From NCBI GenBank assembly GCA_944324805.1, contig CALUXS010000006.1, forward strand, positions 62,001 through 126,000: a stretch of DNA of 64,000 bases. The letters run 5' to 3'. The DNA comes from an uncultured Acholeplasmatales bacterium (GTDB lineage: Bacteria > Bacillota_I > Bacilli_A > Acholeplasmatales > Anaeroplasmataceae). The translations under genes were made by a program, and so were the position numbers. The notes beneath the pieces are model-generated. The model did no database searches. It was not told the DNA's origin and saw only the letters and a program-made list of their open reading frames with translations. Positions 26,831-60,681 of this stretch are shown here, in pieces; positions within the stretch are counted from its first letter, which is position 1; the number at the start of each line of letters is the position of its first letter.

Positions 26831-26917
26831 TGCACCCTAATCAATTGTCTGTAGTGAACCTGGTCAGGACCGAGAGGTAGCAGCCATAAGCGATCAGATG
26901 ATGTGATTAGGCTTTTT
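26831..26917 (+). ncRNA. ffs: Signal recognition particle RNA, small bacterial (4.5S-like) type
   Basis: The conserved helix 8 core is present: GTGAACC, then GGTCAGGACC, a GAGA tetraloop of the GNRA type, and GGTAGCAGCC. The closing stem pairs CCTAATCA (26836-26843) with TGATTAGG (26904-26911), and a T-run at 26913-26918 ends the transcript. It binds Ffh and guides membrane-protein targeting. It lacks the Alu domain found in Bacillus scRNA. Exact ends are estimated. Confidence 0.95.
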
Positions 26918-36811: not shown

Positions 36812-36865
36812 ATGATTAAATACCATATTTCTTTTTTGGTCTTGAAGCGCGCTATCATAGTATAG
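36812..36865 (+). CDS. Putative leader peptide upstream of fhs, 17 aa
   Basis: MIKYHISFLVLKRAIIV is encoded behind a very strong AAAGGAGG (36796-36803) eight bases from the ATG. The ORF ends eight bases before an intrinsic terminator that precedes fhs. GCGCG at 36803-36807, touching the ribosome binding site, can pair with CGCGC at 36848-36852 inside the ORF, so ribosome occupancy could change leader folding. The arrangement resembles translation-coupled attenuation. No amino acid is strongly over-represented. Expression is unproven. Confidence 0.5.
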   Translation: MIKYHISFLVLKRAIIV

Positions 36866-36873
36866 TTTTTTTT

Positions 36874-36908
36874 AACAGCCCCCATAAGTGCGGCTGTTTT
36901 TCTTTTTA
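36874..36908 (+). terminator. Attenuator-type terminator in the fhs leader
   Basis: AACAGCC (36874-36880) pairs with GGCTGTT (36892-36898) around the loop CCCATAAGTGC; TTTTTCTTTTT follows. It ends only 16 bases before the fhs start, so full transcription requires readthrough. Confidence 0.75.
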
Positions 36909-38591: not shown

Positions 38592-40307
38592 ATGAAAAAT
38601 ATTAAGTATATAAATGATAATAAAAGAGTAATCCTAAATTTTACTCAGGTTTATTGTAAAAGTTCTACAGAGGTATTAAATAGCGAATGCTTTAGTGACG
38701 TTTTTGGTCGTTTTGTTGATAGCTTAGAAAAACATGAGCGTCTAGATATGCTTTTCTTACTAAATAAGCTTGAGAATCCTAAACATAGTTTCATAGAGTT
38801 ATTTAAACTTTTACATAGTTTTCCTTATGATGAAATAAAAGAAGTAACTAATATGTATGATGAGGTATTAGAGCATAGAGGTCTATTATATCAGTTAGTT
38901 GAGGATTTTTATAATTATTGGCGTAAGCTTGAACGTTATTCATTAATTGTTGCTAAAAGAGTAGAAACAGGTGTACAAAACAATGTTTTTATTGAATCTA
39001 ATCAACGTTTCACAGAAGTAATTTTAAAAACATATCGTTCTATTAGTGAAAAAATATATGGTAATAAGTTTTCAATTTATCGTCAATTACCAGCTGGTAT
39101 TAATGCATCTATGCTAATTAGTGATTTAGCATGGGCACCTACAGGAAGTGTTTATGAGGTTTTCAATCAAATTCCTTGTATTGAATCGGTTATGATTAGA
39201 CCACCATTTATTTCTTATTCAAGAAAAAATAAGCGTACAGGTGTATATCCTGAGGTCTTCACTAATCCTTTAGTTGGTGTTAGCTTAAATCCTGATGAAT
39301 ACCTATGCTACCCTGCTAAAGTTGGAAGTGCATTAGCATTAATTTATTTTCATCGTGATTTTATGGCTCATGGTATAGCCATTTCAAATCTATTTGATTT
39401 TGCGTCTTGGCAAGAAGTAGAAGGAAAAAAGCCAAATTTAGTATATCTATTTGGTTATGGTGATGAAGAGTCTTGCTTCTATTATGATAAAGATTGGGAT
39501 ATTTATGTTGGTAAAGCTCCGTTATCAAAGGATGTAGATTATTTTGGATATATGAAAAAAATGCTTTTAACTTTGTATAACGTTAAAATGATTAGAGAAG
39601 GTGCACTTCCTATTCATGGTGCTTGCGTCAATATTGTACTAAAAAATAAAACACGAAAAACAGTAGTAATTATTGGTGATAGTGGTGCCGGTAAGAGCGA
39701 AACTTTAGAAGCATTAAGTCAATGTGCTGGTGATGATATCATTGCTATGCATACAATTTTTGATGATATGGGTACATTTAAATTTGTTGATGGTAAAGTA
39801 AAGGCATATGGAACAGAAATTGGTGCCTTTGTGCGTTTAGATGATATGGCTACTGATTATGCCTATAAGGAAATGGATAGAGCTATTTTCATGAATCCTG
39901 ATAAGGTAAATTCACGTTTAGTTATACCTGTATCAACTTATCAACAAATCATGCATGGCTATGATGTAGATATGGTATTGTATGCTAATAATTATGATGA
40001 TTGTGATGATATTAAGTTCTTTGATAATAAAGATGATGCATTAAAAACATTTGTAAGAGGGGCCCGCAAAGCTAAGGGAACTACAGGCGAGGTTGGATTA
40101 GTTGAATCTTTCTTTGCTAACCCATTTGGTCCTGTGCAAAAGGAAGCAGAAACAAGAGTTTTATTAGAACAATATTTCACAAAATTATTTGAGACAAATG
40201 TTTTAGTTGGTGAGATTCATACAAGACTTGCTGTACCGGGAATGGAACAAGATGGTCCTCAAGCTATGGCAAATCGTTTATTTAGTTTATTAAAGGGAGA
40301 TAAGTAA
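38592..40307 (+). CDS. HprK/PEPCK-like P-loop protein of unknown role, between fhs and purE
   Basis: 571 aa. Near residues 361-369 there is GDSGAGKSE, the P-loop form shared by HPr kinase and PEP carboxykinase families, followed by an acidic GDDIIAMH and DDMGTFKF (~391). Around 330-345 [17 protein letters not shown] resembles the strand before such P-loops. The first ~330 residues are not recognised, with [15 protein letters not shown] and [13 protein letters not shown] as distinctive stretches. It may be a distant ATP-PEPCK relative or a small-molecule kinase; no substrate can be assigned. Tight spacing puts it in the fhs-purE operon. Confidence 0.65.
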
Positions 40308-43841: not shown

Positions 43842-43936
43842 GTATTTATATTTATAAAATTAACATAATAGAAAAAATAGAATTATGAAATCGTTTACTT
43901 AATTTATTGAAGATATTTAATATTTATTTAGTTTGT

Positions 43937-43944
43937 GCTATAAT
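43937..43944 (+). promoter_or_regulatory. pur operon promoter (extended -10)
   Basis: TATAAT at 43939-43944 with an upstream TG (TGC-TATAAT). The -35 is weak. It lies immediately before the riboswitch. Confidence 0.65.
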
Positions 43945-43952
43945 GAAAACGT

Positions 43953-44025
43953 AATCTTATATAATAGCTTAAATATGGTAAGCAAGTCTCTACCCTAAAA
44001 CCTTAAATTTTAGGACTATAAGATT
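43953..44025 (+). promoter_or_regulatory. Purine riboswitch aptamer, guanine/hypoxanthine class
   Basis: P1 pairs AATCTTAT (43953-43960) with ATAAGATT (44018-44025). P2 pairs GCTTA with TAAGC around loop AATATGG, and P3 pairs CCTAAAA with TTTTAGG around loop CCTTAAA. The two loops can kiss through GG and CC, as in the xpt aptamer. The J2/3 core is AAGTCTCTACC. The specificity base in J3/1 (GACTAT) is C, which selects guanine rather than adenine. It controls the operon ending in guaB-guaA. Confidence 0.92.
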
Positions 44026-44030
44026 AAGTA

Positions 44031-44060
44031 ATTGAATTTTATATTCAATTTTTTTGGTTT
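44031..44060 (+). terminator. Riboswitch expression-platform terminator
   Basis: ATTGAAT (44031-44037) pairs with ATTCAAT (44043-44049) and is followed by a run of T. Ligand-stabilised P1 would leave this terminator free to form, switching the operon off when guanine is plentiful. Confidence 0.8.
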
Positions 44061-44091
44061 TTGAGACTTTTACCAGGATTGGAAGGTTCTT

Positions 44092-44157
44092 ATGAAAATG
44101 ACAATGCTAGGTAATAATATTTTAAAGATTATGCCATTATTTATGGCACTTTTATAA
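44092..44157 (+). CDS. Putative Met-rich leader peptide upstream of purK, 21 aa
   Basis: A 21-codon ORF beginning MKMTMLGNNILKI, with five methionines, lies behind GGATTGGAAGG five bases from its ATG. It sits between the riboswitch terminator and a second terminator that precedes purK. TGCCAT / ATGGCA inside its 3' half forms a small hairpin (about 44132-44148). Layout parallels the fhs leader, where a short ORF also precedes a terminator. Translation is not proven. Confidence 0.45.
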   Translation: MKMTMLGNNILKIMPLFMALL

Positions 44158-44160
44158 CGG

Positions 44161-44197
44161 AATCAGCACGCACTTTTGGGCTGATTTTTTTGTTTTT
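44161..44197 (+). terminator. Second attenuator-type terminator before purK
   Basis: AATCAGC (44161-44167) pairs with GCTGATT (44180-44186) around the loop ACGCACTTTTGG; a T-rich tail runs to the purK ribosome binding site. Transcription of the operon must pass two terminators. Confidence 0.75.
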
Positions 44198-44209
44198 TAG
44201 GAGGTTTTT

Positions 44210-59139: not shown

Positions 59140-60681
59140 ATGTTTCATGAAAAGGTATTAGTATTAGACTTTGGCGGACAATATAATCAATTGATTGCTC
59201 GTCGAGTTCGTGAGTGTAATGTATATTGTGAGGTTCACCCATATACAATGACACTTGAAAAAATTAAAGAATATAATCCAAAGGGAATTATTTTTACAGG
59301 AGGACCTAACTCTGTATATGGTGAAGATTCTCCACTAGTTTCTAAGGAAATATTTGAATTAGGAGTGCCAATTTTAGGAATTTGCTATGGATCACAAATG
59401 ATGGCACACTTATTAGGTGGTAAGGTTTCTAGTGCAATTGTTAGTGAATATGGTAAGACAAAAATCAATGTTTCAAATTCTTCAAAACTATTTAAGAATG
59501 TAAAACCAGAAACTATTGTTTGGATGAGCCATACTGACTATATAGCAAAAGCTCCTGAATCATTTACAATTACAGCGTATTCTAAGGATTGTCCTGTAGC
59601 AGCAATGGAAGATGAAAAAAACAATTTGTATGCAGTTCAATTCCATCCTGAAGTAATGCATTCAGAAGAAGGTATGACAATGCTTAAAAACTTTGTTACC
59701 TTGATTTGTGGCTGTAAAGGTGATTGGCAAATGTCAAATTTTGTGACAGAAACAATCAAACAAATAAGAGAAAAAGTTGGTTCAGGTAAGGTTTTATGTG
59801 CTTTATCTGGTGGTGTTGACTCATCTGTTGCAGCTGTATTATTATCAAAAGCAGTTGGTAAACAATTAACATGCGTATTTGTTGATCATGGTCTACTTCG
59901 TAAAAATGAAGGTGATGAGGTAGAAGCTGTATTTGGCCCTAATGGTCACTACGATTTAAATTTTATTCGTGTAAATGCACAAAATCGTTTTTATGATAAG
60001 CTTAAGGGTGTTACAGAACCTGAAAGAAAACGTAAGATAATTGGTGAAGAATTTATTCGTGTTTTTGAGGATGAGGCTAAGAAAATTGGTTCAGTAGATT
60101 TCTTAGTTCAAGGAACAATTTATCCTGACGTTATTGAATCAGGCTTAGGAAAATCTGCTGTTATCAAATCACATCATAATGTTGGTGGTTTACCATCAGT
60201 TGTAGATTTTAAGGAAATAATAGAACCTCTACGTTTATTATTTAAAGATGAAGTTCGTAAGGTAGGTTTAGAACTTGGTATACCAAGTAATTTAGTATAT
60301 CGTCAACCATTCCCAGGTCCTGGCTTAGGTATTCGTATCATTGGAGAAGTTACTGCAGAAAAGGTAAAAATTGTTCAAGATGCTGATTATATTTATCGTG
60401 AAGAAATAACTAAGGCAGGTTTAGACAAAGGTTTAGGCCAATATTTTGCTGCTCTTACTAATATGCAATCAGTAGGTGTAATGGGTGATGAAAGAACTTA
60501 TGATTATGCAATTGCTTTGCGTGCTGTAATGACTTCTGATTTTATGACTGCCGACTGGGCAAGAATCCCTTATGACGTATTAGACATTATTTCTAGACGT
60601 ATCGTAAATGAAGTAAAAGGTGTTAATAGAGTACTTTATGATTGTACATCTAAACCACCTGCAACAATTGAATTTGAATAA
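59140..60681 (+). CDS. guaA: GMP synthase (glutamine-hydrolysing)
   Basis: 513 aa. An N-terminal class I glutaminase ([17 protein letters not shown] with nucleophilic Cys, FHPEV with His) is followed by an ATP-pyrophosphatase domain ([15 protein letters not shown]) and dimerisation domain ([14 protein letters not shown]-terminal KPPATIEFE). It aminates XMP to GMP. GAGGTGACTAC precedes the ATG. Last gene of the pur operon; a guanine-sensing riboswitch at the front closes the feedback loop. Confidence 0.98.

Follow-up and report, generated by a model that had tools for sequence, protein, structure and literature searches.

The purine operon of this uncultured bacterium is preceded by a guanine-type riboswitch, and between this riboswitch and the first gene there is space for a second device, a short open reading frame (ORF) followed by a terminator, which raises the question of whether the leader is read in two separate stages, as an earlier note had proposed, or as one. 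The window, i.e., the whole stretch of 64,000 nucleotides that was analysed, is part of a 1.83-Mb assembly comprising 22 contigs. The pur genes are co-directional from purK through guaB and guaA, ending at 60681, and the best five named PurK relatives were all metagenome assemblies, three of which carried the label Acholeplasmatales and the other two Bacillales and Clostridia. Elsewhere in the window we found a small bacterial SRP RNA (26833-26917, 51 bits) and, between fhs and purE, an ORF of 571 residues (38592-40304) with a 10-residue loop motif, for which no Pfam family was found at E 1e-10. The features of the leader are the following:

43917-43944, plus strand: sigma-70-like candidate promoter, TTAATA-16-TATAAT with TG before the second hexamer (10/12)
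43937-44038, plus strand: purine riboswitch aptamer, guanine-type (RF00167)
44030-44050, plus strand: weak A/U hairpin, possible first terminator or spacer hairpin (-4.6 kcal/mol; T7 run at 44049-44055)
44069-44080, plus strand: helix 1, 5' strand, immediately upstream of the leader SD
44081-44086, plus strand: SD-like GGAAGG of the leader ORF, from the sequence
44092-44157, plus strand: leader ORF, MKMTMLGNNILKIMPLFMALL and stop codon, 21 codons with five Met including the start
44103-44114, plus strand: helix 1, 3' strand, within the leader ORF
44132-44148, plus strand: helix 2, UGCCAU/AUGGCA, within the leader ORF, candidate RNA polymerase pause hairpin
44158-44159, plus strand: conserved YG step (C then G), 11 nt past the last G-C pair of helix 2
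44161-44191, plus strand: intrinsic terminator, its first arm 3 nt downstream of the leader stop codon
44210-45289, plus strand: purK, first gene of the operon (PurK_C and ATP-grasp domains)

Since promoter-like sites are no rarer in shuffled sequence (mean 4.0), it is only the position of the candidate promoter that speaks for it. The aptamer was matched by RF00167 at 80 bits (E 1e-12; gathering cut-off 37 bits) and has in J3/1 a C, which we take to mark the guanine type; this single nucleotide is what points to guanine specificity. No other known riboswitch came near its gathering score in the pur and fhs leaders. The terminator before purK has the stem AATCAGC/GCTGATT (44161-44186) followed by a T run, with -9.6 kcal/mol including flanks, and in this respect the earlier note, which described a short ORF with five Met in 21 codons, a good ribosome-binding site and a terminator before purK, was accurate. 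The whole leader (264 nt) folds better than every shuffle (z -5.0), and the second module on its own (139 nt) beats 200 of 200 shuffles (z -3.8). This second module had no match in Rfam 15 at gathering score, rli40 giving only 11.8 bits vs 100. One candidate for another copy in the genome, a DNA match on C11, was rejected as it falls inside coding sequence.

A conserved ORF and terminator in the leaders of relatives

The purK leaders were compared across 55 genomes of the family, among which a leader motif recurs: ACTTGGATCGGAG, start codon, CAAGTTAAT, CCATT-loop-AATGG, stop codon, and terminator. Model R1 was made from seven family leaders bearing this motif with the window left out, and its detection of the window element is an independent test; within the 64-kb window the element ranked first of six matches, with 25.7 bits (E 0.0054) vs 17.0 bits for the next. 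In the family, R1 led to 22 accepted elements among the 55 genomes, 19 of them before purK and three before purL (G004, G014, and G022, in which no purK was found and purL was named by likeness to the PurL of the window). By genus they are distributed as 20/27 in g2, 1/8 in g1 (the window), and 1/11 in g5. Apart from the twelve weaker matches described below, the set leaves out the rest of the R1 matches, all with E of 0.2 or above, among them the divergent leader of G006, which together with those of G013 and G035 was read by eye and stands outside the 22. Model R2, built from all 22 elements including that of the window, gave no accepted member outside the family in 160 genomes of the order and 395 sampled from the class: its matches were found in 23 of the 160, one of them (G012) noise, and in seven of the 395, all within the family. 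Twelve weaker R1 matches in the family lie in or between other genes and lack by eye the features of the element, and the R2 match on C93 of G012 was rejected in the same way. As far as sequence comparison goes, the ORF with its terminator forms a conserved element absent from Rfam 15.

A PurK tree of 30 rows places the window as the first branch of its genus, ahead of G035 (support 88/76) and of six members devoid of the ORF, and the starred branches force at least three changes for the combination of riboswitch and ORF. The leaders of these six have instead, by eye, a GUAGAG-type strand at a terminator before purK. The ORF in the purK leader of G035 (L006) reads through the terminator and ends in an ATGA that overlaps the purK start, which suggests translational coupling to purK.

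The reading frame is conserved along with the element. Frame 0, taken from the aligned ATG, ends at -10 to +15 nt from the terminator arm in 21/22, whereas frames +1 and +2 remain open to the terminator in 0/22, all being closed by nt 35. The ORF has 21-25 codons in 18/22 (the remaining four have 27, 29, 29, and 43), its stop codon falls -6 to +9 nt from the script-drawn terminator arm in 18/22, running into or beyond the terminator in the other 4/22, and the residue at codon 7 is Q, E, or N in 20/22 peptides. Substitution scores make a weak coding test: for codons 1-9 (20 rows, without the window and G043) frame 0 scored +0.16 against -2.9 and -1.8 for the other forward frames, with one reverse frame higher (+0.72), and in the C-terminal block (21/22 rows, G005 having no motif) the lead of frame 0 was small, -0.39 vs -0.83 and -2.19. 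The case for a coding leader is thus made by the openness of the frame instead.

The structure was assessed in alignment A4, with 22 rows that were fitted to the model, so that the figures are biased towards it; the rows are also related, and neither the shuffles nor the rank test take account of kinship. With these limits, 88.5% of the cells are paired, vs 29-40% after a shift of the partner by 1-3 columns, and double changes appear at 7/15 pairs (shuffled mean 2.0). Helix 2 covaries at 5/5 pairs with 97% of cells paired. Covariation is weak in helix 1 (2/10 pairs; 84% of cells paired), which encloses the ribosome-binding site of the leader ORF; in the window both of its strands have changed and the pairing is kept. 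The second, translation-linked module ending at the terminator before purK that the earlier note had postulated is therefore upheld, being selected for frame and structure among relatives.

A YG step follows helix 2 at 10-13 nt in 20/22 (shuffled 6.6, sd 2.1, with 0/2000 as high, kinship ignored), most often at 12 nt; in the window the distance is 11 nt and the step comes directly after the stop codon. From the consensus of hisL-type pauses, the hairpin and Y-1 G+1 are found in 20/22, and G-10 is not conserved. The hisL pause requires the hairpin and G+1 (PMC9291695). In E. coli, a stop codon 5 bp upstream of a terminator cut its efficiency from ~90% to <10% in a translation-dependent way, and terminators lying less than 100 bp into a coding region are efficient (PMC4824070); it is for this latter reason that pausing would be necessary in a short leader. 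Pairing of an antiterminator with the terminator arm showed no excess in these leaders (mean z +0.46).

Proposed coupling between riboswitch and leader ORF

A purine aptamer of Rfam grade lies upstream of the ORF module in 11/22, and the ORF module stands alone in the remaining 11/22, so that the riboswitch is dispensable for it. Where both are present, two strands could link them, which in the window are:

43976-43990, plus strand: aptamer strand UGGUAAGCAAGUCUC, 3' side of P2 plus J2/3, complementary to 44063-44075
44063-44075, plus strand: anti-aptamer strand GAGACUUUUACCA, from complementarity, in part shared with helix 1 (5' strand)

Between them 13 pairs with a 2-nt bulge are predicted at -15.5 kcal/mol, a strength reached by 0/300 shuffles, and the window is the strongest case. 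Set against one consensus aptamer, the leader up to the SD gave -10.6 to -15.5 kcal/mol in riboswitch-bearing members vs -4.6 to -10.8 in riboswitch-less ones (p 5e-5); for complementarity to the own aptamer the shuffle p was 0.000-0.070 in the eleven riboswitch leaders, and 0.037 in the riboswitch-less G025. The linker from P1 to the leader strand has 4-26 nt in 10/11 of the leaders with riboswitch and ORF, and 35 nt in the window. A linker of 4-26 nt is too short to hold a terminator for the riboswitch, so that in most members its effect should pass through the ORF module, the one platform left to it, and a single integrated translation-coupled attenuator is most likely, rather than two stages.

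Equilibrium folding gave no ligand-dependent helix 1, which was predicted with or without the aptamer held and with SD access unchanged, and this counts against the proposed guanine route. Helix 1 was not predicted at all in G016, G023, and G001, and the aptamer pairing dominated short transcripts in the window and G022 only. It is from the complementarity and the missing terminators, not from energies, that we infer a route from guanine to the leader. In two riboswitch-less leaders, L130 (G017) and L140 (G018), a small hairpin is seen by eye just upstream of the element, and its 3' arm might base-pair with helix 1 (5' strand), which would resemble the pairing of the aptamer in riboswitch-bearing leaders.

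The explanation that we favor, with somewhat more confidence than doubt, is a translation-coupled transcription attenuator of the purine operon, located downstream of a guanine riboswitch that itself lacks a strong terminator. What the comparison of leaders shows is the element with its frame and helices, the spacing of stop codon and terminator, the YG step, and the aptamer complementarity; from this arrangement we infer pausing, occlusion by the ribosome, and both the route and the sign of the guanine effect. RNA polymerase would form helix 2 and pause at the YG step ~11-12 nt later, letting the ribosome on the leader ORF catch up; at the leader stop codon this ribosome would cover the first arm of the terminator, resulting in read-through into purK, and when the leader is untranslated the terminator would form. 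Guanine would set the translation of the leader: without it the aptamer strand would pair with the anti-aptamer strand and helix 1 be kept from closing round the leader ribosome-binding site, and in its presence the aptamer would stay folded, helix 1 close, and the operon be off.

In pyrBI-type attenuation a leader ORF reaches the terminator, the polymerase pauses at a U-rich run, and no antiterminator is known to take part. The leaders described here are alike in that their ORF extends up to the terminator (by sequence, with the 18/22 stops noted above), in the pausing proposed for them, and in lacking a detectable antiterminator; they differ in preceding a purine operon and in having a hairpin before a YG step instead of a U-rich run. 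They might represent a purine counterpart of pyrBI, a reading that we regard as rather doubtful, in which release from the pause needs GTP (G+1) and the sequence that comes next is A-rich, so that low GTP or ATP would lengthen the pause, the leader ribosome would catch up, and purine synthesis would be switched on without any ligand-binding RNA. The guanine riboswitch would be a second input in half of the members, setting initiation on the leader. If this were true, one and the same terminator would read nucleotide supply, through the timing of polymerase and ribosome, and guanine, through the aptamer.

Two independent attenuators in series, with guanine acting at hairpin 44030-44050 and ORF plus terminator answering to another translation-linked signal, seem unlikely. 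The occurrence of the ORF module alone in half of the members agrees with them, as does a hairpin with a T run seen by eye at the matching place in same-genus leaders. In the window, the earlier note had the riboswitch terminator ending near 44060, and a hairpin with its T7 run does exist there, but it is weak, holds a single G-C pair, and is absent from the list of the terminator scan. Moreover, such a hairpin cannot fit in 10/11 of the leaders with riboswitch and ORF, yet the aptamer complementarity is kept there. Two independent stages are therefore improbable as a general rule, and the layout is possible in the window and before fhs in G054, because of the extra hairpin between riboswitch and ORF.

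Leaders of fhs

The earlier note also saw the same module before fhs. A leader with that general layout is indeed present in the window, with a different ORF:

36812-36865, plus strand: leader ORF before fhs, MIKYHISFLVLKRAIIV, with SD, 17 codons; terminator at 36874-36901

In this leader the SD region pairs with the last part of the ORF, the helix layout is other than that of the purK element, the sequence is by eye unrelated, and neither R1 nor R2 reported it. Judged on these features, it is an analogous layout and not the same element. An ORF with terminator was seen by eye in 2/23 usable fhs leaders (window and G035), with G054 as a third case. In the latter (L014, ~1481-1820) a guanine riboswitch (77 bits), a hairpin, a 31-codon ORF, and a terminator precede fhs; this could be a true two-stage leader, and perhaps a distant member of the element. 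In genus g2, fhs leaders such as L183, L191, L192, L193, and L196 show upstream of fhs a box similar to AAACGTTTTC/AAACGTTTAC, which may be an operator, and the conserved stretch GTATATCGTAAAAA..ACA..TGATTTT, which may be a leader element not yet described.

The leader peptide and known systems

That the leader encodes an arrest peptide, which would sense a metabolite inside the ribosome and make it stall and block the terminator as in tna, appears quite improbable. There is a recurrent [MI]QVN and [NMD][GAV]-x-[FL] pattern and a stop at the terminator, but the recurrent residues sit on the strands of the helices, the last motif is 0-18 codons from the stop instead of at a fixed distance as in tna, and QV and NG are lost in the window. 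We give very little credence to a new structured riboswitch with a merely incidental ORF, as covariation and conserved nucleotides might indicate, against the frame kept to the terminator in 21/22 with no other frame open and the stop codons located there in 18. Amino-acid attenuation, with stalled ribosomes counting Met or another residue, is suggested by the five Met of the window and is scarcely credible, as the number of internal Met varies between 0 and 4 in the 22 homologues (G003 has none), there is no run of codons for one amino acid that all 22 leaders share, and an antiterminator was not found. Met-richness is not conserved, and the methionine or one-carbon signal put forward in the earlier note is for this reason unsupported.

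If our preferred reading of a single translation-coupled attenuator is true, purine synthesis would here be under a leader-peptide attenuator, and a guanine riboswitch would act on an intrinsic terminator through the translation of a tiny ORF, in place of having its own terminator. Where no terminator follows a riboswitch, the latter would not necessarily be broken, nor act on the ribosome-binding site of the main gene. The family, with riboswitch and ORF, ORF only, or riboswitch only, is a natural experiment in which the wiring is directly testable. In the open-access literature we found nothing beyond a review for guanine riboswitch and leader peptide together, no mention of a purine operon in the papers turned up, and only an archaeal genome paper for Acholeplasmatales and riboswitch.

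Among known systems, the leader-peptide attenuators of trp and his, with the hisL pause, share a hairpin followed by Y-1 G+1 inside the leader ORF (PMC9291695); unlike them, the leaders studied here have no codon run and no antiterminator that we could find, and their ORF contains helix 2 with both of its arms. The tandem leader ORFs of Salmonella mgtCBR also bring several inputs, a purine nucleotide (ATP) included, into one leader; there, however, transcription goes up at high ATP, and the abstract names no aptamer (PMC3641672). The purine riboswitch of B. subtilis yxjA has a guanine aptamer with which a ligand-free helix competes by strand exchange, as proposed here, but that helix faces P1 and an intrinsic terminator (PMC9756952), whereas ours would involve P2-J2/3 and the helix round the leader ribosome-binding site. 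Finally, riboswitch control of a uORF is already known in M. tuberculosis, where the Mbox-uORF (PMC12810186) and the B12 riboswitch-uORF (PMC11260477) likewise set uORF translation and thereby decide downstream expression, although with other ligands and through Rho-dependent termination or reinitiation, not an intrinsic terminator at the ORF stop.
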